Shown here: positions 41,660-62,050 of the stretch, one piece after another
Layout: each line of letters begins with the position of its first letter
Position numbering within the stretch: position 1 is the stretch's first letter
Origin: Azonexus sp. R2A61
GTDB lineage: Bacteria; Pseudomonadota; Gammaproteobacteria; Burkholderiales; Rhodocyclaceae
Assembly (NCBI RefSeq): GCF_021401135.1
Contig: NZ_JACBFO010000001.1
Coordinates: 948,717 to 1,012,716, forward strand
DNA length: 64,000 nucleotides
Direction of reading: 5' to 3'
Translations under genes and position numbers: made by a program
Notes under the pieces: model-generated
Seen by the model: the letters and a program-made list of their open reading frames with translations, nothing else
Databases searched by the model: none
What the model was told of the DNA's origin: nothing

Positions 41660-44600
41660 CTAATCTGGCAGATGTGCGGTCAACCACTGATCCAGATGGT
41701 TTTCCAGGATGAACTGTTGCATCACCCAGGCCTTCATGGCGGCACCTTCCCGCTCTCTCGCCTCGGCATCATGGATGCGTTCGCGCAGCGCTTCGATCCA
41801 GCGCGCGGTATCGTTGGGCAAGATACAGGCCGGTGAGTTGCGGTAGGGGTCGATGTCGGTCGCCACAACGGGAATGCCGAGCACGCCATATTCGAGCAGG
41901 CGAAGATTGCTCTTGCCCTGATTGAATCGGTTGATTTCTAGCGGCGCAATGGCGATGTCCAGATCCAGTGCGGCCAGCTTTGCCGGGTATTCGGAAAAAG
42001 CTACGCCAGGGTGGAATTCGGTGAGCAGGGGACGAATCTCGTCGGTGTGCATGCCCATGAAAACCCAGTCGGCCTCATCGCGGGTCGCTTCGATGACCGG
42101 TTTGATCAGTTCCAGGTCGCCGCGGTGGGCCGTGCCGCCAGCCCAGCCAATTCGGGGCTTCCGGCCGCGGCGCTTGGCGCTTTGCAGGTTGAGCCACAGG
42201 TCGCTTTCAAGGCGGTTGGGAACCACCCGGATATCGGCGATCAGGTGGCGATAGCTCTCGGCCAGGAATTCTGTGCTGACCACCAGCCGGTCGCAATATT
42301 GCAGGGCGTGCTTGAAGCGGCTGCGGGCATTGGCCGGAACGCCGGAGCGCAGCGAACTCTTGAGCGGCATTTCTGTAAACAGGTCGTCCAGGGCGTAGAC
42401 GATGAACGTGTCGAGCCCGCTTTCCCGCCAGGCTTGAAGACCGGCCAGGCGTGGATCGAGCAGATAGTTCTGGGCGATCAAGACATCGGGGGCCAGCCGG
42501 GCCAGTTCGTAAGGGGTGAATTCCCGCTCGTCGTCCTGCTGCCAGATGCAGTCCAGGGCCAGGCCGGCCCGCCTGAGGGCCTTGAGCGGTCCGCTCACCC
42601 GATAGTCGCCCTGCGCGTTGCCGACCGGACGTGCCGCGATACGTGGCAGGCCGGTCGGCAGGTACTGCCAGGCTGCGTGAAATGCGGTTTCCGCTTGCGG
42701 CGACTTTTGCGCCAGGCTCAGGTTGGGGTTCCAGAAAGGATCGGCGACCCCGTTGGCGAGCCAGCGCTGCGCCAGTTTCCGGTCGGATTCGATGCGCGTC
42801 TCCGGTTGGCGGATGTTGGCGATATCGAAATGCTTGCGCAGGCTTTCGCCGTAATGGACCAGCGTGCTTTGCGGTTGATAGATCAGTCGCTTGCCCGCCG
42901 CCAGCAGTTTCAATGAAAAATCGCGATGCGCCGAGTCCTGCGGGAAAATTTCGTTTTCCATGCCGTTGACCGCAATGTAGTCGCTGCGTCTGAGCAGCAT
43001 GCATCCTTCGGCAAGCAGGGTGACGTCGCGGCTGACCTGAAGACAATCGAGGTAACCGCTTTCGGCGAAGTGGGCATCGTCACGGTGGGGTGACGCATGT
43101 TCTCCGGCCAGTCCGAGAATATCGCCCGAATAGGCGATCTGGCCGTTACCCGGACGAACGAGGCGTGGCGACACACCGGCGACTTCCGGTTGGACGAGCG
43201 TGCCGACCAGGCTTTCAAGCCAGTTCGGATCGAGTATTACCGTGTCTTCCTGCAGCAGGACGACATGCTCGTGGCTGGCCGATATGATCGCTGCGTTGCA
43301 GGCTTCGGCCCAGTTCGCGTCATTGTTCAGGAAAACCTGACGGACTGCGGTCGACCGGAAGCGATAGGCCGAAACCCATTCCTCCAGATCGGGATCGGTG
43401 CTTTCCGCCCTGACCAGCAATAACTCGATGTCGTCCCATGCGGTCTTGTCCGCCAGGCTTTCCAGGCATTGCTGCAGGAATTCGAGCTGTCCGCCGGAGA
43501 TGATCGCGATGCTGACCGGCGGGTATTCGTCGAGCTGGCGACGGATCCGCCAGCTGTCCTGGCTGACCGGGATGATTTCACTGCCGGCTGTTGCTGCCTG
43601 AGGGTTCAGCAGGGCATGCATGCAGGCCTCGGCTGAGCTCGGGAAGGCCTCCGGATAGCTGATCAGGACGTCTGGAATATGGCTCAGGCAATGCCAGCCG
43701 GCGGCAGCTGAAATGCGCAGCAATTGGGCGAACCAGGCGCTCCGCCGGTCGGCTGCCGCGCTACCGCTGATCCGCCAGATGTCCCGGCGAACAAACAAAG
43801 GACCGGCCAGGTCGGCCGATTGCAGCCAGGTCGGGTTGACGCCGGGTTTGAAACGCGGTGCATTGCGGATGCCGTGCGCGTCGTAAATGTCGTCATCCGT
43901 GAAGATCGCTCCGATTGCCGTGCCGCCACTGTTGGCGTGCTCGGCGACCCGCCACAGGCAGAGCGGATCGAGAATCGCGCCGGCGGGCAATTCGACGATC
44001 CAGTCGCGTTGCCCCGCGGCGACCAGGAAATCGATGGTCGGCTTCTCGGTATCGCTTTCGGTTTGCTGCCACCCGACGCTGGGCAGGGCATCGAGGCCGT
44101 CGGGGCAAGGCAGGTTGGTGATGATGTCGATATGCCAGCGGTTGTAGAGCTGGTAATTGAGGCTGTCGAGGGTTTCGGCGAGCGCCGCCCGGTCGTTTTC
44201 ACCTGCCCGTACGACGATGTGGAATTCCGGGGGATTGCGCCAGGCAGCAATGGCATCGGCCAGGATGTTTCCGTCGGATGCTTCGATACGACGCGAAGCC
44301 AGCCAGCGCTGGTAGATGCGGGAGGTTTCGATTGCCGCCGGGGTTCCCGTTGGCAAGCTTAAGGCGCGGGATGCGCTTTGCTTTGCATTTTGCCTGGCGG
44401 CCTTTTGTGTAATACGGATGAAGTCGGAAAGCCCTTTCCTGGCTTCGCGGAGACGCTGTTCGGCCCCGAGGTTGTAGATCGTGGAAACCCGATAGTGCGG
44501 TATCGGCGTATCCGGTAACCGATTTTCGGCAACCATCATCGTCCGTTCGAGCGCCGTCCACTGGAATTGCTCCAGGTAGGGGGTCGCTACGTAAAGTACT

Positions 44601-45274
44601 GGGCAACCGCAGGCTCGGGCTTCGAGCACAATCGCTGAGGGTTCGTAGCAATAGAGTACGGTGCTGCGTCTAAGGATATCTGCCAGGTCTTCGGGGGAGC
44701 GCGGGATATCGTGACAGAGGCTGGTTCCATTCTGATCGAGCCAAGGATCGATCTTGCCTCCAAACCCTAGATACTTGTGCGCGTAAAAGCAAAAACCGCT
44801 TCGTTTGAGATCTTGCGGGTTGTCGTGATTATGGAAGATGCGTTCGTCGATCACCGGGAGGTGAAGGCGACGGGAGTCGACGATATCGGGTGTCAGAACC
44901 CATGCATCCCAATGAAAGACGATGTCGGTCGATGCCGGTTTTTCTTCTCCGCCCAAGTGGCCGGGCTTGTTGAGGAGCCAGCGGACGACGACTTCCTGGC
45001 CGAGCGGATTGCCGCTGACAACCTCAGGGTACACTGCAATGCCAGGGCGGTTCGCTTGCCGATGGCGTTCTCGAACCATGTCATCGAGCACGGGGGTGCG
45101 TAGGAATGGACTGGTTTTTGCGGCAGTGACATAAGCTTCGTAGCCCAGTTCATTCAGGATGTGGCAAAGGTAATGTGTTGCTCTAACACCGGCCGAGGTC
45201 TGGCGATAATCGGGGGCGACGATGTAGTAAGGGTAGTCTCGGCTGAGAAAAAAACTCGGATACTTTTTTGGCAT
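41660..45274 (-). CDS. Four-module glycosyltransferase, probable flagellin glycosyltransferase
   Basis: A 1204-residue cytosolic protein with no signal or membrane segment. I see four transferase-like modules: a GT-B-like part (about 15-290, ending CYEPSAIVLEARACGCPVLY), a GT2-like part (about 350-550, acidic triad D460-D462), a second GT2-like part (about 585-850, LLQEDTVILDPNW) and a GT-B/GT4-like C-terminus (about 880-1204, GWAGGTAHRGD, then NLRLLEYGVLGIPVVATD). One polypeptide could therefore add several sugars. Size and position just upstream of fliC recall the Fgt-type flagellin glycosyltransferases of Pseudomonas. Substrates are not deducible. Confidence 0.85.
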   Translation of the reverse strand: MPKKYPSFFLSRDYPYYIVAPDYRQTSAGVRATHYLCHILNELGYEAYVTAAKTSPFLRTPVLDDMVRERHRQANRPGIAVYPEVVSGNPLGQEVVVRWLLNKPGHLGGEEKPASTDIVFHWDAWVLTPDIVDSRRLHLPVIDERIFHNHDNPQDLKRSGFCFYAHKYLGFGGKIDPWLDQNGTSLCHDIPRSPEDLADILRRSTVLYCYEPSAIVLEARACGCPVLYVATPYLEQFQWTALERTMMVAENRLPDTPIPHYRVSTIYNLGAEQRLREARKGLSDFIRITQKAARQNAKQSASRALSLPTGTPAAIETSRIYQRWLASRRIEASDGNILADAIAAWRNPPEFHIVVRAGENDRAALAETLDSLNYQLYNRWHIDIITNLPCPDGLDALPSVGWQQTESDTEKPTIDFLVAAGQRDWIVELPAGAILDPLCLWRVAEHANSGGTAIGAIFTDDDIYDAHGIRNAPRFKPGVNPTWLQSADLAGPLFVRRDIWRISGSAAADRRSAWFAQLLRISAAAGWHCLSHIPDVLISYPEAFPSSAEACMHALLNPQAATAGSEIIPVSQDSWRIRRQLDEYPPVSIAIISGGQLEFLQQCLESLADKTAWDDIELLLVRAESTDPDLEEWVSAYRFRSTAVRQVFLNNDANWAEACNAAIISASHEHVVLLQEDTVILDPNWLESLVGTLVQPEVAGVSPRLVRPGNGQIAYSGDILGLAGEHASPHRDDAHFAESGYLDCLQVSRDVTLLAEGCMLLRRSDYIAVNGMENEIFPQDSAHRDFSLKLLAAGKRLIYQPQSTLVHYGESLRKHFDIANIRQPETRIESDRKLAQRWLANGVADPFWNPNLSLAQKSPQAETAFHAAWQYLPTGLPRIAARPVGNAQGDYRVSGPLKALRRAGLALDCIWQQDDEREFTPYELARLAPDVLIAQNYLLDPRLAGLQAWRESGLDTFIVYALDDLFTEMPLKSSLRSGVPANARSRFKHALQYCDRLVVSTEFLAESYRHLIADIRVVPNRLESDLWLNLQSAKRRGRKPRIGWAGGTAHRGDLELIKPVIEATRDEADWVFMGMHTDEIRPLLTEFHPGVAFSEYPAKLAALDLDIAIAPLEINRFNQGKSNLRLLEYGVLGIPVVATDIDPYRNSPACILPNDTARWIEALRERIHDAEAREREGAAMKAWVMQQFILENHLDQWLTAHLPD

Positions 45275-45327: not shown

Positions 45328-46749
45328 TCAGGTCCGGTACGCTTCGCTTGGGGAAGCGTCGAAATCTTCAAACGCGAGTTCTTTCCATGAGCGTATCTGC
45401 ACTGTCTTGTTTAACCCGTGTATGAATTCCCGCAGATAGGCGTCTTGATCACGTTCCGAACTCAAAATCACGTAGTCGATAGGCTTGTCTTCCGTGGCAA
45501 TCCATTCCGGGCAGCGAATGAGGGTGCCGAGCATCGTCTGGTTCTGGCGGGTTACATTGGAGTCGATGCAGCACAGAAGATTTAATCCTCGTTCTCTGGC
45601 TTCATTGATGAGCAGGGCCGAGATGAGGGCGCTGCCCAAAATCACCGCATTGGCTTTGGGGGGGATGGAGGAGAAGAGATTGCCGCCGGACTGGCGCAAT
45701 TTGGCCCAATGGAATAATGCATGTGTCGCAGTTGGGTTTTCAGGTGCTGGTTCTGTAAGCCCCTGGAAAAAATCCCCCCTGTTTGCCAAGGTTTGCGAGA
45801 GGAAAATTCGCAGCGGTAGCAATGGAGGTGCAGCTTCCATATTGTGGGAGAGATCGCTGCAAGCCTTGTCGAACAGCCGCTTCAGTTGGGCTCGTACTTT
45901 GGTATCGGGTTGCGGGGTAACGGTGTGTATGATTTCGTGTTGAGCGGTGAAGCGCGCGATATGGCTGTCCAGCAATGGCACTATCCGTTCTCTATCCGCT
46001 AACTTTCCAGCCAGACGACGCAATATCTTGTAGGTATTTACGATCCCCCGGGATAGATGGGTGCGATTCGAGTCTTGGGCGCCATGCTTGCGGTACTTGA
46101 GCAAGGGGGCATTCAGGAAGGCCACACTCCCGAATGTATTCATCAGGGCTGGGATGAGCACGTCATCGCCGCCATGGTTTTTAGGCAGGCGTTTTCCAAG
46201 CTCCTGATCGTAATATATCGGGTCGATATAACGTCGGGAATATCGTGCTCGCTCAAACATCATGCAACTCGGCAGCGGCCAAAGGTTTTCGGACGGAAAG
46301 CGGGCAATGAATTCTCCCTTTCCGTATATTCGATCGTTTCCTGGCGGCGTGAAATATTCCTGAATGGTGTTGCCATCCTGGTCGATGGTGCTGGTGTTGG
46401 TCCATACCGCGGTCATGTCAGGGTTGGCGTCCATTATGGCCATCTGCTTTTCGAGCATTTGCGGCTGCATTATGTCATCGTCGTGCGTGATGATGAGGCG
46501 TCTGCCGCGAGCAATCTTGAATGCCGAGACACCATTGAACATGATTTCGAGGCCTGGTGGATTTCGCACGTAACGGATGCGTTCATCCTGGATGCCGAGC
46601 ACGACGGAAGGGGTGTCATCGGTGCTGCCATTGTCCAGAATGAGGAATTCGAAGGCGCGGTATGTCTGGGCGCGGATGCCTTCGATGGCTTCCCGCAGAT
46701 AGTGCGAGCGGTTGTAGGTCAGTAGCGCGACGGTTAGTGGAATGTGCAC
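45328..46749 (-). CDS. GT2-family glycosyltransferase with C-terminal Rossmann-like domain
   Basis: 473 residues. The N-terminal 250 are a GT-A transferase (VALLTYNRSHYLREAIEGIR, then LDNGSTDDT and the DxD-type D90-D92 in ITHDDDIM). The last 110 residues form a small nucleotide-binding-like fold (KANAVILGSALISALLINEA, then DYVILSSERDQDAYLREFI) like that fused to the FkbM methyltransferase at 52580-53629. By eye the GC content is lower than that of the flagellar genes. Donor and acceptor are unknown. Confidence 0.82.
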   Translation of the reverse strand: MHIPLTVALLTYNRSHYLREAIEGIRAQTYRAFEFLILDNGSTDDTPSVVLGIQDERIRYVRNPPGLEIMFNGVSAFKIARGRRLIITHDDDIMQPQMLEKQMAIMDANPDMTAVWTNTSTIDQDGNTIQEYFTPPGNDRIYGKGEFIARFPSENLWPLPSCMMFERARYSRRYIDPIYYDQELGKRLPKNHGGDDVLIPALMNTFGSVAFLNAPLLKYRKHGAQDSNRTHLSRGIVNTYKILRRLAGKLADRERIVPLLDSHIARFTAQHEIIHTVTPQPDTKVRAQLKRLFDKACSDLSHNMEAAPPLLPLRIFLSQTLANRGDFFQGLTEPAPENPTATHALFHWAKLRQSGGNLFSSIPPKANAVILGSALISALLINEARERGLNLLCCIDSNVTRQNQTMLGTLIRCPEWIATEDKPIDYVILSSERDQDAYLREFIHGLNKTVQIRSWKELAFEDFDASPSEAYRT

Positions 46750-46872: not shown

Positions 46873-47982
46873 CTATACGCCCCGGTCTTCGATGAGTTTG
46901 CGCAGATTCGGATTTTCAGCGTAGGGACCGTCAATGTGGTGAATGGTCAGCGCCTGATCGGGCCCGAGATTGCTTGTCAGGCATTCGCCATTCATGACTT
47001 CACGGCAGGAAAGCTGTCCTTTTTGCAAGGGGATGGCGAGATAGAAGTCGTGCTCGAATGTCTCACTGGAGAGAATGTAACCGGCAGGTAACTCTCGTCT
47101 TGCATAGACGCCGCGGACAAGGGCGTCCAGATAGGTGATTTCCTTTGCCGAGCAGATGCGGCGTCCGGATTCGCTGCCGCCGCACATCTCTCGCGCCTTG
47201 CGATTGGCTTTGAACCAGGCATCGACCTGCTCTGGCAAGGAACAATAGGGCGATACTGGAACGCCTTGGTAGTCGATGTCGATATGTCTTTCCCACGTCC
47301 GTGCGCCCTTGGCGTAGCTGAGATACATCGAGGCGTCCCAGGAGTGATACTCGTGGGTGGAGAAGCCGATTACGTGATCAGCGTAGCGCTGACGGAGGTA
47401 GTCGATCTGGTTCAGCTCCAGATCGTCGTCCTCCGACGGATAGAGCGACACGCAGTGATTGAGGGCCAACGGGATGTCTCGCCGCTCGAAGAAAGCCACG
47501 ATGTCGTCCAGGTTTTTCTCCGAGGCGCCACCAGATGAAACAATGACCGGAAGCTTCTTCGAAGCAATTTTCTCGATCAATGGCCAATCCGCGATGTCGG
47601 AACTGGCGATTTTGATGATTGGCATGCCGAATTCGACACACAGATCGACCGAGTGTTCGTCGAAGGGGGTAGCCATCGGGATGATCGACAGCCGCCGGAT
47701 TTCCTCGACCATGCGGGCAAAATCTGTCTTGGAGAGCTTTGTCTCCTCGGTTTTCTTGATGTATCGGATGTCTTGATTGCCCTTGAAGTCCCGATGCACG
47801 AATTCATTGACGTCGCGGAACTGGAGTTTGATCGCCGCTTTGACGTTGTTGTAGCGGATGACCGTGCCGTGATCGTGGATGATTTTCAAGCCGCGTTCGA
47901 GACTACCCCAATGGTTGTTGGCCAGTTCGAGCACGAACAGGTTTTCAAATATCTCGTTGCGGTTTTTCAGTGAAGAAATCAT
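46873..47982 (-). CDS. NeuB-family sialic/nonulosonic acid synthase-like protein
   Basis: Members condense phosphoenolpyruvate with an N-acetyl-aminosugar to make nine-carbon acids. I chose the ATG at 47982 (369 residues); an upstream TTG at 48000 is possible. NeuB hallmarks are present: ELANNHWGSLERG, KLQFRD, MATPFDEHSVD, IKIASSDIADWPLI, PVIVSSGGAS, LNHCVSLYPSEDDDLELNQI and ERHIDID, plus a C-terminal SAF-like domain (ARRELPAGYIL). No CMP-transferase (NeuA) or hydrolysing epimerase lies in the window, so the product could be an unusual acid. Confidence 0.8.
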   Translation of the reverse strand: MISSLKNRNEIFENLFVLELANNHWGSLERGLKIIHDHGTVIRYNNVKAAIKLQFRDVNEFVHRDFKGNQDIRYIKKTEETKLSKTDFARMVEEIRRLSIIPMATPFDEHSVDLCVEFGMPIIKIASSDIADWPLIEKIASKKLPVIVSSGGASEKNLDDIVAFFERRDIPLALNHCVSLYPSEDDDLELNQIDYLRQRYADHVIGFSTHEYHSWDASMYLSYAKGARTWERHIDIDYQGVPVSPYCSLPEQVDAWFKANRKAREMCGGSESGRRICSAKEITYLDALVRGVYARRELPAGYILSSETFEHDFYLAIPLQKGQLSCREVMNGECLTSNLGPDQALTIHHIDGPYAENPNLRKLIEDRGV

Positions 47983-48059
47983 AAAAGAATGTTCAAGCAA
48001 GCCTAGCGGGGCGGTGAAGTTAACGTTCTGGACAGGCTGGATGGTACACCGGGAGAAAA

Positions 48060-49856
48060 TTATCTCGGCGCAGCTCTGACTTGGGCGGCCTCATGGCGTA
48101 GTGATTCAAGTTCGGTTTGCGGGAGAAAAGGATACATGTCGTCAAGTTCCGGGGTGGCGAACCTGCCATCCGGGAGTACCCGTGATTTGATGCGTGGCTC
48201 GAAACCAATCCCGGGTTCGACGCGGACAGCGATCAGGGCTGGGCCGTCTTTGGCAAGCGTCTCGTCGAGGATGGGCAGATCGGCGTGGGTGGCGATCGTG
48301 ACCGCAGGAATTCCATAAGCGGTGGCGATCTTGGCAAAATCCGGGAATTCAATGCCTGAAGCAGGTGTGGCACCGATGACGCGGTCGAAAAAATTCTCGT
48401 GCGTCTGGCGGATGGAGAGGTATCCCTCGTTGTTTATCAGCACGATGACCAGATTGAGTCCCAGCGTCTTGAGGGTCTGCAATTCCTGAATGTTCATTTG
48501 CAGACTGCCGTCACCAGCGAAGCACACTACCCGGCGGCTACCGGCAGCCAGTGCGGCACCAATGGATGCCGGCAGATCGTGGCCCATCGAGGCTGATCCT
48601 GAATTGCTGAACATGCGTTGCCGCGGACGCAGCTTGCCGATTTGGAAGGGCAGGATGCAGGCCGACGCGTTCCCGCAGACGATCAGATCGTCGTCGCGCA
48701 GTTGCTCGAAAACGCGATCGACCAAAGCATAGGGATGAATTCTTTCGGTCGGAAGAGGGGCAGAAAAGGCTGGATAGCGTGCACGTATGGAGCGACACCA
48801 GTCGGCCCAGGCCGTGTAGTCGGGTAGAGGATTGTTGATGCAATTCTCGTTCAGTGTGCTGAGGAAATCCGCGACATCGGCTGTAATGCGCAATTCTGCC
48901 CGGACCAAGGGTTTGGACAGTTCGGCGGGGTCGATATCGACCTGAACGATCTTGGCATTTCTGGCGAAACTGCCCCAGTTGTAACTTACTTGCCGGATAT
49001 TGAGGCGTGAGCCAAGTACCAATACCAAGTCGGCATTCTGGATGCAGAAATTGCCGGCGCGAGTGCCGATGGTGCCGGGGCGGCCAGCGAAGAGCGGATG
49101 GTCACTGGCGATCAGATCGTGGGTCCATGCCGTCGCCAGCGGAATGCCGTGTCGTTCGACGAAATCGAGCAGCGCGCCTTCCGCTCCGGCCAGTCGTACG
49201 CCCGTGCCGGCAAGGATGAGGGGGCGGTGGGATTGGTTGAGCAGATTCCACAGTTGTTCGCAATCAGCCGGTAGCGTCGACGTTACCGGCGGTCGGCAGG
49301 CAGGCTGTGTCGCTGGCGGGAGCGGCGGACATTCCGCTGCCTGGATGTCGATGGGAATATCCAGCCATACAGGGCCGGGACGTCCGCAGGTGGCTTGAAG
49401 CAGGGCTTCCGGAAGCAGTTGGGCCAGCGCTGCGGGGCTGCCTACGCTGGCTGCGAACTTGGTAATCGGCTTGGCCATCGCGATGATCGGGCCTTCCTGG
49501 TCTCCCAGTTGGCGCAGGCCGGGTACGGGCGTGTAGTCCAGGCAGGTTTCGCGCTTTACTTGGCCACTGATGACGAGCATCGGAATAGAGTCAGTGAAGG
49601 CGCCGAATACGCCATTCAGGGCGTTGATGCCGCCAGGTCCTGTGGTGACCATGACGACAGCCGGTTTGCCGGTGATGCGGGCGTAACCTTCTGCCGCCAT
49701 GGCGCAGGCCTGCTCATGGTGCATGAAGGTGCAGCGCAGTCCGGGATGGCTGCCCAGTGCCTGGTTCAGATACATGGCACCGCCGCCGGTAACGGCGAAG
49801 ACTTGTTCAATGCCATGTTCGGCTAACCAGTCGGCGATGCGTTCGGAAAGTTTCAT
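48060..49856 (-). CDS. Acetolactate-synthase-like TPP enzyme, probable sugar-branching (YerE-like)
   Basis: 598 residues, complete: the N-terminal PYR domain with catalytic Glu48 (HHEQACAMAAEGYARITGKP), a central domain, and the C-terminal TPP motif GDGSLQMN to NNEGYLS. No regulatory ilvN subunit or ilvC is nearby, and the segment after the TPP motif (SIRQTHENFF) differs from housekeeping IlvB. In clusters with RfbF and RfbH, TPP enzymes of this fold (YerE) transfer a two-carbon unit from pyruvate to a CDP-4-keto sugar. That specific function is inference from context. Confidence 0.78.
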   Translation of the reverse strand: MKLSERIADWLAEHGIEQVFAVTGGGAMYLNQALGSHPGLRCTFMHHEQACAMAAEGYARITGKPAVVMVTTGPGGINALNGVFGAFTDSIPMLVISGQVKRETCLDYTPVPGLRQLGDQEGPIIAMAKPITKFAASVGSPAALAQLLPEALLQATCGRPGPVWLDIPIDIQAAECPPLPPATQPACRPPVTSTLPADCEQLWNLLNQSHRPLILAGTGVRLAGAEGALLDFVERHGIPLATAWTHDLIASDHPLFAGRPGTIGTRAGNFCIQNADLVLVLGSRLNIRQVSYNWGSFARNAKIVQVDIDPAELSKPLVRAELRITADVADFLSTLNENCINNPLPDYTAWADWCRSIRARYPAFSAPLPTERIHPYALVDRVFEQLRDDDLIVCGNASACILPFQIGKLRPRQRMFSNSGSASMGHDLPASIGAALAAGSRRVVCFAGDGSLQMNIQELQTLKTLGLNLVIVLINNEGYLSIRQTHENFFDRVIGATPASGIEFPDFAKIATAYGIPAVTIATHADLPILDETLAKDGPALIAVRVEPGIGFEPRIKSRVLPDGRFATPELDDMYPFLPQTELESLRHEAAQVRAAPR

Positions 49857-53629: not shown

Positions 53630-54383
53630 CGCTGTCTTTCAACTTGATCAGGATGGCGTGCCCATTCAGATTGTGTACGAACCGGAAGTCGCTGTTATGG
53701 GCGATAAACTCGTTGACCAGGCGGGTCACGCCTTCGCAACCGAAGAAGCCGTAATCGTCAAAGACAACGACGCCACCGCGTTGCAGGCGATGCAATGTCC
53801 AATTCAGCACGTCTTTGGCCGATTCGTATGCGTCAACATCGATGTGGACCAGCGCCAGTTTTCTCCGCTCGATCTTTTCGGCATTTGTCTCGGGGAAAAT
53901 ACCTTTCAGTATCTCGGCATGATCCTGTACGTCGCAGCGCTTCATGAGGTCGTGAACGACATCTTCTCCGGTATCGGCATGCTCTCCGCCCACATACGAG
54001 GTATCGCGCGCCCCGGTCTTGACTACGCCGGAAAATGTGTCGGCCAGGAATGTTCGCCGGTTTTGCGTTTTTCCGATCAAGGCCAGCAGGCATCCTGAGC
54101 CTCCCCGCCAGACGCCAACTTCAAGAAAATCGCCCCTAACGTCTTCAAGTTGCCGGGCGAGTGTCCAGAGCTCATACAAACGAAAAGCATCGACCAGAGT
54201 ATGTGTTTTCACCTGTTCGTAAGCTGCCTGAAACGCCGGATCGTTGCTCCATGGTGAGTAGCTGGCGTAGGGCAGAACATGGGTATGGACGATCTCGGGG
54301 GCTTGCCGGTGATGCCAAGGGGCTTGTGACCGCAGAAAGTCATAGCTGAATTTGGTCAGGCGTTTTTTGAGCCATTTATTCAT
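53610..54383 (-). CDS. TylF/MycF-family O-methyltransferase
   Basis: 257 residues. SAM and metal-binding features of the macrocin-O-methyltransferase family are visible: DFLEVGVWRGGSGCLLAL, LADTFSGVVKTGARD, LVHIDVDAYESAKDVLNW and VVVFDDYGFFGCEGVTR. These enzymes methylate deoxysugar hydroxyls. Four-base overlap with the SDR gene upstream and 20-bp overlap with the FkbM gene: three methyltransferases in this run point to a heavily methylated sugar. Confidence 0.85.
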   Translation of the reverse strand: MNKWLKKRLTKFSYDFLRSQAPWHHRQAPEIVHTHVLPYASYSPWSNDPAFQAAYEQVKTHTLVDAFRLYELWTLARQLEDVRGDFLEVGVWRGGSGCLLALIGKTQNRRTFLADTFSGVVKTGARDTSYVGGEHADTGEDVVHDLMKRCDVQDHAEILKGIFPETNAEKIERRKLALVHIDVDAYESAKDVLNWTLHRLQRGGVVVFDDYGFFGCEGVTRLVNEFIAHNSDFRFVHNLNGHAILIKLKDSDERAAI

Positions 54384-55447
54384 GATGTAGATGAACTGCT
54401 TTTCCCCTGGAGATGCCAGTCAAGGGTACGTTGAATGGCGTTGCCCAGTGGAATACGGACGGCAAGTCCGAGTTCTTGTCTGGCACGTGAAATGTCCGGT
54501 ACGTAACGTATCGGCCGTTTATCCGGTTCCGGCGTGCGGGCAATGCAAATGTGCGGCTTCCTGCCTGGCAGCGTGTCGGAGACCACATGCGCCAGTTCCG
54601 CAATACTCAGCGCCTGATCCGAGCCGACATTGTAGGGGCGCAGCGCTTCGCCGCGGAGCAGGATGGTCAGCAGCCAGATCATCAGATCGGCGGCGTGCAG
54701 GTAGGAGCGCAGCGGGGTGCCGTCGCCCTGGATGGCGATGTCGCGGCCATGCAGTGCGTCGGCGATGAAGTTGCCGACGGCGAAATGCTTGTCCAGCGCC
54801 AGGTACGGGCCGACGAAGGCGAAGCAGCGGGCGATCTTGACTGGCAGGCCGTGCTGCTCGTGGTAAAGCGCAGCCAGCAGTTCGGCGGTGCGCTTAGCTT
54901 CACCGTACAGTGCAGCGCTGCTGGTGCAGTCAGGGGCGCCACGATGGTCTTCGGGAACGTGGTCGAGCGTTGTCGGTTGCGGGCCGTAAATGGCGCCGGA
55001 ACTGGTCAGTAGAACTTCGCTGGCGCCGCAGCGCAGTGCAAAGTCGAAAACCCTGCGGGTGCCTTCGACAATGCTGTCGAAGCCCGCCAGTGGCGGCGTG
55101 GGCGGGGTTCGGGCATAGGTTTCGGTTGCGGCGTGAATGACACAGTCGAAGTGCCCGGCGGGAAAGGCAAAGTGCCGCACGTCGCCGGACAGCCATTGGA
55201 TCGCAGGTTCTGCCCCGAATTCAGGGAAGCGTTGCAGAAAGCTTTCCGGCGAACGGGAGAGGACGGTCGCCTGCAGATCGATGCCCAGTGAGCGGCGGGC
55301 GTGGCGCAGCGATTCCAGCAGCCAGATGCCGAAAAAACCGGTGCCGCCGGTGATGAACAGGCGTTTTCCGTCCAGGGCCGACCAGAGGTCGGCGGTATGC
55401 GCCAGAATGTGATCGAGATCGGCGGCCGGCAGGCGAGAGGCGGTCAT
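54380..55447 (-). CDS. NAD(P)-dependent SDR sugar epimerase/reductase
   Basis: 355 residues from the ATG at 55447; a TTG at 55474 would add nine and overlap rfbH. Extended SDR fold: GGTGFFG (34-40), SSGAIYG and the catalytic YGEAK. It lacks the acidic residues that 4,6-dehydratases carry after the Ser (it has SSG, not TDE), so it is unlikely to replace the missing CDP-glucose 4,6-dehydratase. Placement after rfbH suggests reduction or epimerisation of the 4-keto deoxysugar, as YerF does after YerE. Confidence 0.8.
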   Translation of the reverse strand: MTASRLPAADLDHILAHTADLWSALDGKRLFITGGTGFFGIWLLESLRHARRSLGIDLQATVLSRSPESFLQRFPEFGAEPAIQWLSGDVRHFAFPAGHFDCVIHAATETYARTPPTPPLAGFDSIVEGTRRVFDFALRCGASEVLLTSSGAIYGPQPTTLDHVPEDHRGAPDCTSSAALYGEAKRTAELLAALYHEQHGLPVKIARCFAFVGPYLALDKHFAVGNFIADALHGRDIAIQGDGTPLRSYLHAADLMIWLLTILLRGEALRPYNVGSDQALSIAELAHVVSDTLPGRKPHICIARTPEPDKRPIRYVPDISRARQELGLAVRIPLGNAIQRTLDWHLQGKSSSSTS

Positions 55448-55463
55448 TGCTGCGGTCAACCAC

Positions 55464-57047
55464 TCAAAATGCAAAAAAAGCTTCGAGTTTGCCGGCGACG
55501 AATTCCAGGGCTTCCCGGCTCAGGGCTGGCTGAACGCCGATGCAGAAGGTGTCGCGCATGATCTTGTCGGTGTTCGGCAACTCACCGATGCAACGGAACT
55601 GGCGACCCTTCATGTAGGGCTGCCGGGTGATGTTGCCGGCAAACAGCAGTCGGGTGCCGATCTTGTACTGATCGAGATAGCGCAGTAGGTCGACGCGGTT
55701 GACGTTGGCCTCGTCGCGCAAGGTCAGCGGAAATCCGAACCAGGCCGGCACGCTGTTTGCGGTTGCTTCCGGCAGCATCAGGAATTCGGCGGTGCTGGCC
55801 AGACGTTCCTTGAGAAAGGCGAAATTGGCTTTGCGCTGTTCGACGAAGTGCGGCAGCTTGGCCAACTGGGCGAGACCGCAGGCGGCCTGCATGTCGGTGA
55901 TCTTCAGGTTGTAGCCGAGGTGGCTGTAGATGTACTTGTGATCGTAGCCATAGGGCAGGTCGCCCAACTGCTGGCAAAAGCGCTTGCCGCAGGTGTTGTC
56001 CCGTCCCGGCTGGCAAAAGCAGTCGCGTCCCCAGTCGCGGAAGCTTTCGGCGATCAGTTTGAGTTCGGGGTTGTTGGTGAACAGTGCGCCGCCTTCGCCC
56101 ATCGTGATGTGATGGGCCGGGTAGAACGAAATGCTCGCCAGATCGCCGAAAGTGCCAACCGAGCGGCCGGCGTAGGTCGAACCGAGCGCGTCGCAGCAAT
56201 CTTCGATCAGCCACAGCCCATGCTTTTTGCAAAGCCGGGAGATGGCTTCCAGATCGAAGGGGTTGCCCAGCGTATGGGCGAGCATGACCGCCTTGGTTTT
56301 GCTGCTGATCGCGGCTTCGATCTGTGCCGGATCGATGTTGTAGGTCTGCGGATCGACATCGACGAAGACCGGTACGGCACCGAATTGCAGGATCGGATTG
56401 ACGGTCGTCGGGAAAGCCGCCGCCACGCCGATGACTTCGTCGCCCGGCCTGATCGCACGTTCGCCCAGGCGCGGCGAGGTCAGCGTCATGAAGGCGAGGA
56501 GATTGGCAGACGAGCCGGAATTGACGGTGAGAACGTGGTTGACCCCAAGAAAGCTGGCCAGACGGCGTTCGAATTCGGCATTGAAGCGACCGGTCGTCAG
56601 CCAGCCGTCCAGGGCTGCGTCCACCATGTGGGTGATTTCGGCGGCGTCGATCAGCTTGCCGGTGGCCGGTGCCGGCGTCTCGCCGGGGATGAAGGCCGTC
56701 GGGGCAAACTTGTGGCCGGCGTAGTCGGCGACCGCGGCGCGAATGCAGGCGCGGGCGATTTCATCGCAGGCCGCCGGGGTCAGCCGGGCGACGCGTTGTC
56801 CGATAGCCGCGCCGGGCAGGCGGCAGGCGCTGTCCGGCAGGACGCAGGCGCCGGCCTCGATGGCCCCGTCGAGCAGTTGGTCGGGGCTCAGCGGCAATCC
56901 GCCGTCTTCTGCACCAGCGGCGGGGGCGATGAAGACGAAGCGGCCGCTGCCGCCGGTCCGGGTGTCGGTCAGTGCGACGGCGAGCGCGTGTATTGCCAGC
57001 GGGCCTTGTACGACATGGATGCCGCCGATTTCAACGGGAAGTTGCAT
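55464..57047 (-). CDS. rfbH: RfbH: CDP-4-keto-6-deoxy-D-glucose 3-dehydrase (E1) with N-terminal extension
   Basis: [2Fe-2S] PMP enzyme that removes the 3-hydroxyl on the way to 3,6-dideoxyhexoses. It has 527 residues; typical RfbH is about 435. From residue about 90 the match is close: [16 protein letters not shown] carries His where aminotransferases have Lys (His312/313), and four Cys at 285, 343, 345 and 353 keep the C-X57-C-X1-C-X7-C cluster spacing. The first 88 residues are an extension I do not recognise; no start codon lies at the normal position. No E3 reductase gene is nearby. Confidence 0.92.
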
Positions 57048-57107: not shown

Positions 57108-58448
57108 TCAGGTCGACCCGACGGTCAGATAGCGTGCCAGCGCAAAGTCCCCGGGCCTGAGCAAACGCCGGGGATCGGCGATCACCAGGCCGCTCCGGTC
57201 GCAGTCAGCGAGCGATCGGTAGGTTTCCCAGCGTGTAGCGACGATGACGGCATCTGCTGCGGCAACCGCGCAACGCCAGTCTTCGGGATAGCTCAGCCGT
57301 TCGGCCAGATCGGGATTGGCCCGGGTGAATTGGGGCGCGGCGACCGGATCGTGTGCGGAGACGCGGGCGCCGGCGGCCAGCAAGACGCGGATCATTTTCT
57401 CGGAAGCCGATTCCCGCACATCGTCGGTGTCCGGTTTGAAGGCCAGGCCGAGGACGACGACGTGCCGTCCGTCGAGCGTGCCGAGCGCATCCTGCAGTAA
57501 GCGGACGATTTCTGCCGGTTGCTGTTCGTTGACCGCAAGCACGGCTTCCAGGACATGCATCGGCAATCCTTGACTGCGGCCTTGCGAACGCAAGGCCTGA
57601 ACGTCCTTGGGGAAGCATGAGCCGCCGAAGCCGCAACCGGGCACGAGATAGTCCAGAATGCCCGGATGCACGCGCCCGCCGGGCGTCAGCGGACTCCAGC
57701 GCTTGTCCAGCGCAACGCCCTGGACGACTTCCGAAAAATCGATGCCGCCCAGCCGTGAGGCAAGGTTGGCGATTTCATTGATCAGCGAGATCTGGGTTGC
57801 CAGGATGGCGTTGTTTGCGTACTTGATCAGTTCCGCCGTGCGGGTGTTGGTTTCGATCCGCGGAATGTCCGCCCAGGGGGCGTACAGGGCGCGCAAACGT
57901 TGCCGCGTGGCCTCGTCTTCCGCGCCGAGGACGATGCGGTCCGGCTGGTTGAAATCGTCGATCGCTTCGCCTTCCCGGAGAAACTCGGGGTTCATGCCGA
58001 GGCCCCATTGCCCGGGCGGCTTGCCGGCCGCGGTTTCGACTGCCTGACGCACGAGCTCACCGGTCGTCCCGGGAATGACAGTGCTCTTGACGACAATCGA
58101 TAGTGAGTGATCGCTATCTGCCAGGAACTTGCCGATGGCGGTGGCGGCAGCAAGGACCTGGGATGGGTCGATGATGCCGTCGACCGACGGTGTGCCGACG
58201 GCGATCATTGCAATGTCGCTGTCGCCGAGATGGGCATGGAGATCGGTTGCGGCGCTGAAACTGCCGTCCTGTCGTACTTTTTTCAGCAGCGCATCGAGAC
58301 CGCGTTCGAAAATCGTCGGCTGACCTGCATTGAGGGCGTCGACAATCGCCTGCTTGAGGTCGATGCAGACCACCTGATGGCCACGACTGGCAAGACAGAC
58401 GCCGGAGACCAGCCCGACGTAGCCCGAGCCGACGATGGTGATTTTCAT
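57108..58448 (-). CDS. ugd: UDP-glucose 6-dehydrogenase
   Basis: Oxidises UDP-glucose to UDP-glucuronate with two NAD+. It has 446 residues: N-terminal Rossmann GSGYVGL (7-13), central ELIKYANNA (Lys209, Asn213), catalytic Cys278 in GFGGSCFPKDV and a C-terminal NAD-like domain (VLGLAFKPDTDDVRESAS). Its start overlaps the upstream decarboxylase-like SDR by four bases, so the pair likely works in sequence. Confidence 0.92.
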   Translation of the reverse strand: MKITIVGSGYVGLVSGVCLASRGHQVVCIDLKQAIVDALNAGQPTIFERGLDALLKKVRQDGSFSAATDLHAHLGDSDIAMIAVGTPSVDGIIDPSQVLAAATAIGKFLADSDHSLSIVVKSTVIPGTTGELVRQAVETAAGKPPGQWGLGMNPEFLREGEAIDDFNQPDRIVLGAEDEATRQRLRALYAPWADIPRIETNTRTAELIKYANNAILATQISLINEIANLASRLGGIDFSEVVQGVALDKRWSPLTPGGRVHPGILDYLVPGCGFGGSCFPKDVQALRSQGRSQGLPMHVLEAVLAVNEQQPAEIVRLLQDALGTLDGRHVVVLGLAFKPDTDDVRESASEKMIRVLLAAGARVSAHDPVAAPQFTRANPDLAERLSYPEDWRCAVAAADAVIVATRWETYRSLADCDRSGLVIADPRRLLRPGDFALARYLTVGST

Positions 58449-59533
58449 GCGCGAGCCTCGGCCGCCAGAAAGCGCAGGTAGCGGGAGATGCCTTCGGCGA
58501 CCTCCACCGCCGGCGCGTAGCCGAGTAGCCGGCGAGCTTTCGCGATGTCCGGGCAGCGCCGGTTCGGATTGTCGGTCAGGTAGGCCGGGTCGTCGCTGGT
58601 CCGGAACTCGATTTTTCCGCGGTAGCCGAACAGTTGCCGGGCCGCGTCGACATAAAGCTCGGCGACGCGGCGTACGCTGACTTCAGGACGGTCCATGCCG
58701 ATGTTGAAGTAGTCGTAACGGCCGTGCAGCAGGCAGCGCAGGTAGCCGGCAATGGCGTCGGTGATGTAGCAGAAGGTCCGGGTCGGCGAACCGTCCGAGA
58801 GCAGCACGATATCCTCGCCGGCCAGCACGCAGCGGGCCAGGTCGGCCGGCAGGCGGCGGTCGTCGGTACGCATGCCCGGGCCGTAGTTGTTGAACGGCCG
58901 GGCAACGGTGATCGGCATGCCGAACTGGGTGCCGTAAATCCAGCACAGCGTTTCGCCGAAACGTTTGGATTCGTCGTAACAGGCACGTGGACCGTGGCAG
59001 GAGACGTTGCCGCGGTATTCCTCGGGCGTTGGAATCGCGGCAGGGTCAGGGTCGCCGTAAATCTCGCTGGAGGAAAAGAAAAGCAGTCCCTTGAGCGCCG
59101 GGTTGTCGCGGTAATGGTCGAGAATGCGCCGCAGGCCCCAGATGTTGCCGTCAACCGTTTCCAGCGGATACTTCCGGTAGAACACCGGGGAGGCGATCGA
59201 CGCCGCGTGGATCACGTAATTGACCGTTTCCGCCGTCGCCAGTTGTCCGAGGTCGTCGCGCGAAATATCGAAGGTGCGGACCTCGAGGCGATCGCCATGC
59301 GTTTGCGCCAGTGCGGTCAACCAGTCCGGGCTGCCGACAATGAATGTGTCCAGGGCAATGACGCGGCGGATGCCCAGGGTTTCGGCGTAGCGCGTCAGGT
59401 AGTTGACGAAGTAATAGCCGAGAAATCCCCCGGCGCCGGTAATCAGTACCGTCTGGTCAGCGAGTTTCTGGCGGACATCGGTGAGGGTTTCGTGGATGCG
59501 GCCGAGATCTTCATGCAAAACCGGGTTTTCCAT
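58445..59533 (-). CDS. UDP-glucuronate-decarboxylase-like SDR
   Basis: 362 residues from the ATG at 59533, four bases after rfbF. Extended SDR: GAGGFLG (33-39), SSSEIYGDP with Glu157, Tyr186/Lys190 in ACYDESKR and the NNYGPGMR segment. These match UXS-type enzymes (UDP-GlcA to UDP-xylose or UDP-4-keto-pentose) better than RfbG, whose TSDKCYD and WQHVLE motifs are absent. Coupling to ugd supports UDP-glucuronate as substrate. Other SDR activities cannot be ruled out. Confidence 0.78.
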   Translation of the reverse strand: MENPVLHEDLGRIHETLTDVRQKLADQTVLITGAGGFLGYYFVNYLTRYAETLGIRRVIALDTFIVGSPDWLTALAQTHGDRLEVRTFDISRDDLGQLATAETVNYVIHAASIASPVFYRKYPLETVDGNIWGLRRILDHYRDNPALKGLLFFSSSEIYGDPDPAAIPTPEEYRGNVSCHGPRACYDESKRFGETLCWIYGTQFGMPITVARPFNNYGPGMRTDDRRLPADLARCVLAGEDIVLLSDGSPTRTFCYITDAIAGYLRCLLHGRYDYFNIGMDRPEVSVRRVAELYVDAARQLFGYRGKIEFRTSDDPAYLTDNPNRRCPDIAKARRLLGYAPAVEVAEGISRYLRFLAAEARA

Positions 59534-59537: not shown

Positions 59538-60311
59538 TTATTCCCAAACCTTCCACGGGGCTTTTCCCGATTGCCAGAGTTCTTCGAGGTGGTTCTTGTC
59601 GCGCAGCGTATCCATCGGGTGCCAGAAACCGGTATGGCGCCAGGCGGCCAGTTGTCCGCTGCGGGCCAGCGTTTCCAGCGGACCTTTTTCCCAGACCGTG
59701 TGGTCATTGTCGATGAGGTCGATGACGCTCGGCGACAGGACGAAGAAGCCGCCGTTGATCATGCCGCCGTCGCCGTCGGGCTTTTCCTCGAAAGCGTCGA
59801 CCTGATCGCCGGTCAGGCGCAGGGCGCCGAAACGACCGGGTGGGGTGACGGCCGCGATGGTGGCGGCGACGTTGCGCGAGCGATGAAATGCGATCGTGGC
59901 GCCGATGTCGATGTCGGTGACGCCGTCTCCATAAGTGAAGCAGAAGGGTTCGCCATCATCGATGAAATGCCGTACGCGGCGCAGGCGTCCGCCGGTCTGG
60001 GTCCGTTCGCCGGTATCCACCAGTGTCACCCGCCAGGGTTCCGCATGACGCTCGTGAACTTCCATGCGGTTGTTCCGCATGTCGAAGGTCACGTCCGAGT
60101 TGTGCAGGAAGTAGTTGGCGAAGTATTCCTTGATGACGTAGCCCTTGTAACCCAGGCAGATCACGAAATCGCTGATGCCGTGGGCTGCGTAGATTTTCAT
60201 GATGTGCCAGATGATCGGCTTGCCGCCAACCTCGATCATGGGTTTGGGCTTGAGATGCGATTCCTCGCTGATCCTGGTGCCCAGGCCACCGGCCAGAATG
60301 ACTGCCTTCAT
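59538..60311 (-). CDS. rfbF: Glucose-1-phosphate cytidylyltransferase
   Basis: Makes CDP-glucose from CTP and glucose-1-phosphate, the first step of CDP-dideoxyhexose synthesis. It has 257 residues, exactly the length of Salmonella RfbF, with GGLGTR (8-13), [19 protein letters not shown] and [10 protein letters not shown]. It overlaps the diguanylate cyclase gene by four bases. RfbG, the usual second enzyme, is not in the window. Confidence 0.95.
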
Positions 60312-62050
60312 CGACTGATTACCCGGTTCTTGCCGGTTTGTTTTGCTTCGTACATGGCTTCGTCAGCGCGTTTGACCACGCTGCCCTGATCGTCCCCATC
60401 CGCCATCTGAGTGACGCCGGCACTGAAGGTTATCAGCACTTTCTCGTTCCCGTGAAGGAAAAAACGCTTGGTCAATTCCCGCTGCAGCCGGGTCAGGACG
60501 TGCGCCGCATCGTCGAGCAGGGTTTCCGGGAGCAGAATGATGAACTCCTCGCCGCCGTAACGCGCCACGGTGTCCTGCGGGCGCAGTGTGTCGCGGCAGA
60601 CCTTGGCGAGATGGATCAGCGCCTGATCGCCGGCATCATGTCCCATCGAATCGTTCAGTTTCTTGAAGTTGTCGATGTCGAGCAGGGCAATGCACAGCGC
60701 AGTGTCGTGGCGCGTGGCGCGGGCGACTTCCTTGTTGAACATGTCTTCCAGGCCACGGCGGTTCAGCACGCCGGTCAACTGGTCGTGGCGGACGAGGTCG
60801 CTGGTTTCTTCCAGTTCCTTTTCCAGTTCGCGGATGCGCGCTTCGGCTTTTTGCGCCTTTTCCTGGGTCGACCGCAACTCGTCGTGGGAGCGCTGGGCGT
60901 TGAATTGGATATTGCGGGTTTCGCGCATGACCTCGGCGAGCACTTCTTCCAGTTCACCGATGTCGTTGGCCGCGCTGACCTTGACCGCGCAGGCATCGAT
61001 CTTGTCGTGGTATTCCGATGTCGCATCGGCGAAATCGGCCAACTGGTCGACGAAGCCGGCGAGCATTTGCTTGATGGCGTTACGCGCCTCGAACAAGCTG
61101 GTCTTGAGCTGGCTCTGCTTGAACAGGACTTCCTTGAGATGCCTTTCGGCGTCGTCAAGGCTGCGTTGTGACAGCGGTTTGTCGATGATGTCGCGGACAA
61201 TCTCGATCTGGCCGTGTAGCCAGCGATCGTCCACCACCAGTTCGTGGATGTTGGAAACCAGCAGTTGCAGCAGGCCGAGCAGGCTGTGGCGCAATTCGGC
61301 CTGATCTTCGGCGAGCAGTTCCAGTTTGAAGGCAAAGCGCTTCAAATGGTTGTGGAATTCCCGGAGGTCGCTTTCGGTCGTCACGCGCCGGATATCGCTG
61401 GCCAGGTGCTGTGCATCGCTGGCCAGTGGCGGGTGTTCGGCCAGTTGCGATGCGATGGCGGTGTCGAGTGTGAAAGCCAGTAGTTCGCGAAGCTGCGCTT
61501 GCTGGCCTGCTGCGGTCGACGGCGTGTCCGACTGGATTTCCGTCTGCAAGGTTTCCGTACGATCCTGTCCCTGGCCTTGCCCCCAGGATTTCAACAAATT
61601 CTGCAGTCGACCGTAGAGCAGCTCGGGATTGGCACTGCTGCCGGCAAGCACATGTTCCAGCGCCTCCCGCTTGCGGGCTGCCGTCAGGCCGGGGTGCTTG
61701 GCTTCCCACTGGCGAAGGAGGTCGGTGATGAGATCGGCCCAACCCAGCTTCTGTTGTTCGATCAGCGTGCCGATGAACTCGGCGAGGTGCTTGCGATAGT
61801 CTTCCCAGTTTGACTGCTTGATCGCATCGTCCAGTTGGCGAGCCAGGCGCAGTTGGTCCGGGCTGTTGCGCGGCAATGCGGCGGCAAGGGAGCGCAGGTG
61901 GCGCTCGGGGAAGTCCGCGTCAGCGGGTTTGGTGCCGGCAATTTCATGATAGAGCGTCTGATAGTTGTCGGGCGTCGGTGCAATACGCCGCGCCGCCAGC
62001 TGCTTTAGCGTATCGCGGGCAATCTCGAACGGATTGGCTGTGGCGTTCAT
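60308..62050 (-). CDS. Diguanylate cyclase (GGDEF) heading the glycan operon
   Basis: Makes cyclic di-GMP. I start it at the ATG at 62050 (580 residues); the frame runs on through the tRNA-Thr gene but that part cannot be coding. The N-terminal 400 residues are soluble, helical and coiled-coil-rich with no known sensor; a coiled coil leads into the GGDEF domain ([16 protein letters not shown], active site RYGGEEF) and an RxxD inhibitory site (RPQD) lies five residues before it. The four-base overlap with rfbF makes it the first gene of the run. Confidence 0.9.

Follow-up and report, generated by a model that had tools for sequence, protein, structure and literature searches.

A locus beside fliC in Azonexus sp. 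R2A61 as a candidate system for a sulfated, methylated flagellin glycan

Flagellin glycosylation islands are already known as a kind of locus. Those of the Enterobacteriaceae are variable islands of sugar genes for flagellin, and one type of them, present in 4 strains, makes CDP-4-keto-6-deoxy-D-glucose, according to the available part of the source (PMC4875605). The locus described here is a run of 15 open reading frames (ORFs) upstream of the flagellin gene fliC of Azonexus sp. R2A61, within a stretch of 64,000 nucleotides (the window; NZ_JACBFO010000001.1, positions 948,717–1,012,716; all coordinates below are window positions). As in such islands, sugar-synthesis and glycosyltransferase (GT) genes adjoin the flagellin gene. 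The window differs in its chemistry of CDP-branched sugars, a predicted sulfation and a frame formed by a GGDEF gene and a tRNA-Thr; the available text of PMC4875605 contains neither sulfotransferase, 'sulfat', RfbH nor thiamine.

The locus shares RfbF, RfbH and a YerE-like thiamine diphosphate (ThDP) enzyme with the yersiniose/erwiniose pathway (YerE, ErwE, JanthE; available parts of PMC12247030 and PMC12188165), but it has no RfbG, carries SDR1 (a short-chain dehydrogenase/reductase, SDR) and UGD in its place, and has a NeuB-like partner enzyme and fliC as a neighbour. SDR1 and UGD belong to the same two enzyme families as the UDP-xylose pathway (UGD and UXS), from which the window-type pair differs in its genetic link, seen in 8 of 8 genomes, to a gene for glucose-1-phosphate cytidylyltransferase (a fragment in one of them). 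The candidate sulfotransferase has its fold in common with heparan-sulfate 3-O- and N-sulfotransferases (Foldseek E 2.4e-5), but is bacterial, shows 13–18% identity to them and has no Pfam match. Large fliC-linked GTs are known from Pseudomonas (FgtA/Fgt1 type), and the large GT of the window is likewise multi-domain and about 1200 aa long; full-length homologues (29–35% identity) are encoded in the same stretches as fliC in Pseudomonas, Zoogloea and Acidovorax. Unlike the FgtA/Fgt1 type, its N-terminal (~300 residues) and C-terminal (~900 residues) parts vary independently between genomes.

On balance, the comparative evidence leans towards cytosolic synthesis, by this block, of a C-branched sugar that is methylated and sulfated and that a GT of 1204 aa would attach to flagellin before export. 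In the proposed pathway RfbF would make CDP-glucose from glucose-1-phosphate, UGD would oxidise it to CDP-glucuronate, and SDR1 would decarboxylate this to CDP-pentos-4-ulose, from which RfbH, acting on the pentosulose, would remove the C3 hydroxyl. The NeuB-like enzyme would condense phosphoenolpyruvate (PEP) with an unspecified aldehyde to a 4-hydroxy-2-oxo acid; the YerE-like enzyme would decarboxylate this acid and join the remainder to the C4 ketone, and SDR2 would reduce the ketone newly formed. Three methyltransferases would methylate the branched sugar, an adenosine 5'-phosphosulfate (APS) kinase and the sulfotransferase would sulfate it using APS from CysND, and the GT2 protein and the large GT would assemble the glycan on Ser/Thr of FliC before export. 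This whole chain, from the CDP-pentos-4-ulose route through 3-deoxygenation and C4-branching with a NeuB-made acid to a sulfated, methylated flagellin glycan attached by a GT of exchangeable sugar and flagellin modules, is put forward tentatively. Gene families and order, the lack of an RfbG over cut-off, the repeated occurrence of the RfbF-SDR1-UGD and NeuB-ThDP sets in other genomes, and the tracking by GT modules were computed directly; from these we infer substrates, product and acceptor.

The 15 ORFs share one strand, as described in a first-pass annotation made from the sequence alone; they run on the minus strand from nt 62050 down to nt 41660, and the last stop is 113 bp before fliC. 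In the order of transcription they encode a diguanylate cyclase (GGDEF), RfbF, SDR1, UGD, RfbH, SDR2, a TylF-type and an FkbM-type methyltransferase (MT), the sulfotransferase-like protein (ST), APS kinase (APSK), a class I methyltransferase, the ThDP enzyme, the NeuB-like protein, a GT2 protein and the 1204-aa GT. That annotation had counted a 15-gene glycan island; 14 of the 15 are glycan genes, and the first in transcription, the diguanylate cyclase gene (nt 60308–62050, −; PF00990 151.6 bits, start at 62050), is flank and forms the left frame of the locus. Exact 4-bp overlaps, previously called many, do exist, at 4 of the 14 junctions (APSK/ST, TylF/SDR2, UGD/SDR1 and RfbF/GGDEF), so that 'many' was generous; gaps within the run reach 133 bp. 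The run ends, as had been noted, at the promoter of fliC, a sigma28-type site TAAAGTTT-N11-GTCGTTAA (nt 41622–41648, −; −10 half widened to fit), the sigma28 consensus being GCCGATAA. One other match, with 2 mismatches, was found when the window was scanned allowing up to 3 mismatches. With its own sigma28-type promoter, fliC could be transcribed independently of the block. The highest hydrophobicity over any 19-residue stretch of the 15 products was 1.99 (APS kinase), none being strongly hydrophobic, which is consistent with cytosolic enzymes.

CDP-sugar genes and the place of RfbG

Of the canonical set for CDP-3,6-dideoxyhexoses, RfbF and RfbH score above their NCBIfam cut-offs and RfbG/DdhB does not. 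RfbF/DdhA, the glucose-1-phosphate cytidylyltransferase that forms CDP-glucose (nt 59538–60311, −), gives 479.1 bits to TIGR02623 (cut-off 300.25), and RfbH/DdhC, the 3-dehydrase (E1) of the DegT family (nt 55464–57047, −), gives 716 bits to NF011936 (cut-off 423). Its active-site His, which we take to mark a dehydrase, is His also in 3bcx and Lys in 3bb8. RfbH carries an N-terminal extension of ~95 aa; residues 1–95 show 42% identity to those of the homologue in G176 (genus UBA2592, of the same family), against 79% for the whole proteins. No CDP-glucose 4,6-dehydratase (TIGR02622) over cut-off was found in the window genome, the best score being 102.2 against a cut-off of 278.45 bits.

The place of RfbG is occupied by UGD (nt 57108–58448, −), a nucleoside diphosphate (NDP)-glucose 6-dehydrogenase presumably acting on CDP-glucose (TIGR03026 385.5 bits, cut-off 189.8; PDB matches to UDP-glucose dehydrogenases), and by SDR1 (nt 58445–59533, −), a UDP-xylose-synthase-like NDP-glucuronate decarboxylase presumably acting on CDP-glucuronate. 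The closest solved relative of SDR1, and its best PDB match, is human UDP-glucuronate decarboxylase; SSE and YxxxK motifs are present, and the motifs SSSE.YGDP and GPRACYDE are invariant in 7 sequences. RfbG is found in 8 of 10 other family genomes with a close NeuB ortholog. The two without it are G176, which has SDR1 and UGD between RfbF and RfbH, and G038, which has a third kind of SDR there (L051/L052 joined, 8932–10137). In a named collection, of which the best 80 of 347 NeuB relatives were kept, RfbG accompanies 48 of the 51 loci having both RfbF and RfbH; two of the three exceptions, L086 (Competibacteraceae) and L127 (Mailhella), have SDR1-UGD in place of RfbG, the third being L084.

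Searches with SDR1 returned 3 of 398 phylum genomes at E≤1e-95 (the window genome, G401 and G322) and 3 of 395 genomes of the phylum of L127 at E≤1e-80 (G200, G1163 and G1343). The eight SDR1 genomes, all of which were read, are these, G176 and G199, L086 lying in G199 and L127 in G200. UGD lies directly downstream of SDR1 in all eight, and RfbF is in the cluster in all eight, directly upstream of SDR1 in six. RfbH is part of the cluster in five (window, G176, L086, L127, G1343). The stretches read of G322 and G1163 contain the RfbF-SDR1-UGD trio but neither RfbH nor RfbG, and CDP-glucose thus has no other visible local use there. Five other full-length RfbF proteins scanned (that of G176 left out) gave 303.6–473.5 bits, all over the cut-off. 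Conversely, 8 of 9 UGD-like ORFs in the fetched stretches adjoin SDR1 (4 of 5 when the four stretches fetched for SDR1 are excluded). This linkage of a cytidylyltransferase with two enzymes of NDP-hexuronate type, an oxidase and a decarboxylase, suggests a route from CDP-glucose via CDP-glucuronate to CDP-pentos-4-ulose, and the families named earlier as 'UDP-glucuronate' chemistry, though confirmed as families, more likely act on CDP-sugars. SDR1 was found neither in viral contigs nor in plasmids (E 1e-50). In G1343 there is also a flagellin-like ORF (L196:9632–10000, 44% over 123 aa) some 14 kb beyond the RfbF-SDR1-UGD-RfbH run.

The alternative that survives best, although we regard it as unlikely, is a CDP-3,6-dideoxyhexose of the yersiniose/erwiniose type, its 4,6-dehydration being carried out by another SDR of the cell, and UDP-xylose, made separately by UGD and SDR1, being another sugar of that flagellin glycan. 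Several observations fit this alternative or otherwise weigh against a CDP-pentose. SDR1 and UGD resemble UDP-sugar enzymes, and a preference for UDP-sugars could still be theirs; dehydratase-like SDRs of the window genome reach 96–102 bits to TIGR02622; and RfbG is used in 54 of the best 80 NeuB/ThDP loci. The L127 cluster has SDR1-UGD, yet its genome, G200, holds two RfbG genes elsewhere. In G401 an RfbG-like ORF lies near a second RfbF, and the trio's RfbF is a fragment of 104 aa that matches no family. G038 and L084 have no RfbG (genome or locus, respectively) and yet no SDR1. Specificity columns numbered 1 for RfbH and 0 for RfbF, giving no clear signal for a changed substrate. Against the hexose stand the lack of an RfbG over cut-off in 3 of the 4 SDR1 genomes searched (window, G176, G199), the recurrence of the trio with RfbF in 8 of 8 genomes, twice without RfbH and RfbG in the stretch, and the placing of most UGD-like ORFs of the fetched stretches beside SDR1. 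Weighing these, we give the CDP-pentose route an even chance.

In a literature search made mostly without subscription journals, neither CDP-glucuronic acid nor CDP-glucuronate was found among the papers listed. CDP-xylose appears as a crystal ligand of RfbG in the available parts of PMC8987622, PMC5335844 and PMC10918830. Within that literature, the sequence CDP-glucose, CDP-glucuronate, CDP-pentos-4-ulose was not found in print, and it looks undescribed.

The NeuB-like and YerE-like enzymes

NeuB-family synthases condense PEP with aldehydes to give 4-hydroxy-2-oxo acids. The NeuB-like protein of the block (nt 46873–48000, −; PF03102 128.8 bits), a putative maker of such an acid as donor, is encoded next to the ThDP enzyme (nt 48060–49856, −), which may couple an acyl unit to a 4-keto sugar through a C–C bond. 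Among solved structures the best match of the latter is 8rph (1e-95, 324.8 bits; next match 246.8 bits), which is JanthE, a YerE-like enzyme (PMC12188165, available in part); its closest characterised relative is therefore YerE-like rather than an acetolactate synthase. As given in the available part of PMC12247030, YerE couples pyruvate to CDP-3,6-dideoxy-4-keto-glucose, and the YerE-like ErwE does not use pyruvate but prefers donors such as 4-hydroxy-2-oxo acids. Section 2.1 of that paper does not state the origin of these acids, and 'NeuB' does not occur in its available text.

The two enzymes are encoded together far beyond the window. The NeuB-like protein occurs in 25 of 199 family genomes (E≤1e-60), 11 of them close (at least 57% identity, window included) and 14 distant. 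A ThDP gene lies near it in 9 of the 10 other close genomes, the exception (G014) being a 4.6-kb contig, and in 12 of the 14 distant loci, for which 4-kb stretches were read. The best 80 of 347 loci in the named collection hold ThDP in 72, RfbH in 59, RfbF in 56, RfbG in 54, SDR2 in 46 and fliC in 16. In the 72 loci the two genes always lie within 6 kb, and in 40 of them they are adjacent on one strand. In 3 more loci the ThDP gene is cut by a contig end, giving 75 of 80; of the remaining five, four lie on contigs of 3–8 kb, and the fifth, L091, has no ThDP within its flank. Such widespread pairing suggests that the 2-oxo-acid donor for C-branching comes from this NeuB-like clade, which on the simplest inference supplies it to the ThDP enzyme. 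What had been listed as NeuB-like and TPP chemistry is thus likely to be a linked pair serving one C-branched sugar, and a C-branched CDP-sugar is quite probably the product. SDR2 (nt 54380–55474, −), a reductase/epimerase-like SDR by family match, may have a YerF-like role. Specificity columns were 0 for both ThDP and NeuB. NeuB together with yersiniose or caryophyllose was not found in any of the papers listed by the literature search.

Nonulosonic acids are common on flagellins, and the NeuB-like enzyme might instead make a separate nonulosonic acid while the ThDP enzyme takes pyruvate as in yersiniose, the linkage then reflecting two sugars of one glycan. Membership of the NeuB Pfam family is in keeping with this. 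We nevertheless hold it to be distinctly unlikely, as the protein scores far under the curated cut-offs (NeuB 108.1 of 399.65 bits, PseI 107.6 of 340.25 bits), no island protein exceeds the cut-offs for CMP-nonulosonate synthetase, PseB, LegB or NeuD (weak LegB and NeuD matches exist), and two NeuB subfamilies both pair with ThDP.

The second of these subfamilies (~500 aa; L033–L046) has, by sequence reading, a cupin-like C-terminal extension. Contigs labelled Prochlorococcus/Cyanobium (L096, L099, L124) and Bacteroidetes or Cyclobacteriaceae (L114, L138) likewise hold the NeuB-ThDP pair, with no fliC match in the stretches.

Methylation and predicted sulfation

The three methyltransferases, the APS kinase and the very large GT of the first-pass annotation were all recovered, as was the sulfotransferase as a candidate. 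The methyltransferases are a TylF-type O-methyltransferase (nt 53610–54383, −; PF05711 86.7 bits), an FkbM-type enzyme (nt 52580–53629, −; PF05050 37.7 bits, with a weak N-terminal PglD_N-like match to PF17836 of 20.5 bits, below cut-off) and a class I S-adenosylmethionine methyltransferase (nt 49990–50892, −; PF13489 71.6 bits).

APS kinase, which makes 3'-phosphoadenosine 5'-phosphosulfate (PAPS), is encoded at nt 50902–51504 (−; TIGR00455 241.8 bits) and is the sole full-length one in the window genome. Its gene overlaps by 4 bp that of the putative PAPS-dependent carbohydrate sulfotransferase (nt 51501–52487, −), an order kept in G176. CysN is present in the genome (568.9 bits), and an ATP sulfurylase of family PF01747 was not found there. 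Neither Pfam nor NCBIfam gave a match to the candidate sulfotransferase, but 3 of its 38 listed relatives (itself included) carry PF00685, and their alignment shows a loop like the 5'-phosphosulfate-binding (PSB) loop with nearly invariant G10, K13, G15, T16 and T17, besides invariant R88 and S96, residues whose roles we presume to be those of a sulfotransferase. A Foldseek search with its AlphaFold2 model (pLDDT 85.7) gave 20 matches at E≤0.001, all of them sulfotransferases, namely heparan-sulfate 3-O- and N-sulfotransferases and one bacterial sulfotransferase. Because the sole full-length APS kinase adjoins a protein with a PAPS-sulfotransferase fold, sulfation is predicted, and that it falls on the glycan is likely from the model and gene order.

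Some findings temper this prediction. The structural likeness is distant (TM-score 0.43–0.51 by query and 0.21–0.61 by target; root mean square deviation 6.1–9.6), and the family is rare, occurring in 5 of 199 family genomes, with the window genome alone matching among 369 class genomes at E≤1e-20. Of the five, the window and G176 have the gene linked to fliC and G080 is a weak case, while in the stretches read of G146 and G061 it lies in clusters not beside fliC. The occurrence of the family outside flagellar loci would suit an APS kinase and sulfotransferase acting on another small molecule or polymer; this appears very unlikely given the overlap of the two genes inside the cassette, their conserved order in G176 and the lack of a second full-length APS kinase in the genome. 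No sulfotransferase relatives were found in viral contigs.

APS kinase genes are also present in the fliC cassettes of three genus members (G645, 231 bits; G613, 98 bits; G619, 54% over 87 aa), where no sulfotransferase is shown beside them. In G645 a 463-aa ORF with a PSB-like motif (L175:12382–13773, +) adjoins the APS kinase gene; it has no Pfam match and no meaningful PDB sequence match, and its poor model (pLDDT 58.3) gave helicase and P-loop-kinase matches, with no sulfotransferase among the 50 matches listed.

Sulfated flagellins are known from archaea. In the portion of the literature available, neither a flagellin glycosylation island with a sulfotransferase nor, among the titles listed, one on a sulfated bacterial flagellin was found. 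If the present reading holds, the glycan would be, to our knowledge, the first sulfated one on a bacterial flagellin.

Cassettes in relatives, the large glycosyltransferase and flagellin

The comparison of fliC-upstream regions proposed in the first-pass annotation was made in 15 genus stretches and in G176 and revealed variable sugar cassettes. A flagellin search of 60 genus genomes matched 23, the window genome included, and for 15 of the other 22, namely the 8 closest and 7 more, the fliC-upstream stretch was read. GGDEF is present in 9 of the 15. The six without it comprise three short stretches (G601, G630, G610) and three in which none lies in the part read (G638, G613, G619). The tRNA-Thr (TGT) that marks the outer edge of the locus, beyond the GGDEF gene (nt 62093–62166, +), recurs in 7 of 12 related stretches scanned. 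Between the positions of GGDEF and fliC, G624, G645 and G619 carry RfbF-RfbG-RfbH-NeuB-ThDP sets, G062 has RfbF-RfbG-RfbH without ThDP, and six others (G623, G625, G613, G635, G112, G627) have other sugar genes; none were recognised in G639 and G638. The stretch from tRNA-Thr/GGDEF to fliC is a variable cassette in the genus, its gene content varying within a fixed frame, and several relatives retain the arrangement of GGDEF, variable sugar genes, large GT and fliC. The 20 largest direct-repeat families among the matches listed for nt 41000–64000 resemble chance matches inside genes; without border repeats there is no sign of site-specific integration at the tRNA-Thr.

Most of the block recurs in another genus of the family. 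In G176 (L065), 12 of the 14 glycan genes stand beside a fliC of 49–51% identity, at 68–88% identity (RfbF 82%, SDR1 78%, UGD 72%, RfbH 79%, SDR2 68%, FkbM 74%, ST 73%, APSK 84%, the PF13489 methyltransferase 75%, ThDP 80%, NeuB 88%, and GT2 72–85% in two ORFs), together with an extra FkbM-type methyltransferase.

The 1204-aa modular GT (nt 41660–45274, −), a putative flagellin glycosyltransferase, matches PF00535 at residues 589–711 and, weakly, GT1 at 1062–1198, with no Pfam match in residues 1–340. The smaller GT2 is encoded at nt 45328–46749 (−; PF00535 75.6 bits). Flagellins of the relatives fall into two types, A with 65–78% identity to the window FliC and B with about 50%. Of the type A genomes, 7 of 8 (window, G624, G645, G623, G625, G630 and G610, but not G638; G601 was not assessable) carry, upstream of fliC, a match to the C-terminal ~900 residues of the large GT (~316–1204), against none of 8 type B genomes (G176, G613, G635, G619, G062, G639, G112, G627), a distribution with Fisher p 0.0014, descriptive since it ignores relatedness and some stretches are short. 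The large GTs of G176, G613, G635 and G619 share the first ~230–300 residues (40–49% identity) with that of the window, the remainder being of another kind; that of G619, the sole one of them scanned, has TPR and GT41 matches. This N-terminal part accompanies all five ThDP cassettes (window, G624, G645, G176, G619), and in nine genomes neither was seen (G630 and G610 with short stretches), giving Fisher p 0.0048, again descriptive for related genomes and some short stretches. Of the 16 fliC-holding NeuB loci in the named collection, 11 were compared, and 10 of these have a full-length homologue of 29–35% identity; in L067 and L071 the GT gene is placed within the cassette and does not adjoin fliC.

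A large GT with a sugar-reading N-terminal and a flagellin-reading C-terminal part would account for this pattern. Points on the other side are that the N-terminal part is also found in two cassettes without ThDP (G613, G635), that L068 has ThDP and only the C-terminal part, and that G176 shares the N-terminal part alone and has no TylF gene at its place. The tracking of flagellin type by the C-terminal part, the arrangement kept in relatives and the G176 set together point to flagellin as the target, which we consider highly probable, and after comparison the first-pass reading, in which methylation and sulfation belong to a cytosolic system for a flagellin glycan, is still the best one. That the block is an O-antigen, capsule or exopolysaccharide cassette beside fliC by chance is highly improbable: YerE-type chemistry is best known from lipopolysaccharide sugars (available part of PMC12247030), 64 of the best 80 NeuB loci have no fliC in view and sulfotransferase relatives lie away from fliC, but variable sugar genes hold the same fliC-side place in the genus and G176, a GT module tracks flagellin type, large GT homologues are present in 11 of 11 fliC-holding named loci compared (of 16), and family scans of the 15 block proteins gave no polymerase or flippase (wzx/wzy-type) match, as had been reported.

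The proposed acceptor, FliC (264 aa; nt 40752–41546, −; Flagellin_N/C), has a centre of 49 residues with 41% Ser/Thr, and is followed downstream by flaG (nt 40273–40695, −; PF03646) and fliD (nt 38918–40249, −; PF02465/PF07195). In 5 of 7 type B genus stretches an ORF of 720–818 aa lies beside fliC on the opposite strand (e.g. L187:17023–19401, −); G627 has ORFs of 597 and 866 aa instead and G639 has none. The one scanned, in G619, encodes a TPR and GT41 protein, a possible second flagellin glycosyltransferase.

Confirmation of the CDP-pentose branch and of a NeuB donor role would be new enzymology in an island of known kind. If the reading is true, CDP-glucose would have a new use via a CDP-pentose branch, a widespread NeuB-like clade would find its function in making donors for YerE-like carboligases, and sulfate would occur on a bacterial flagellin. 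The cassette differences within the genus would then be a natural experiment on which part of the large GT reads the sugar and which the protein.

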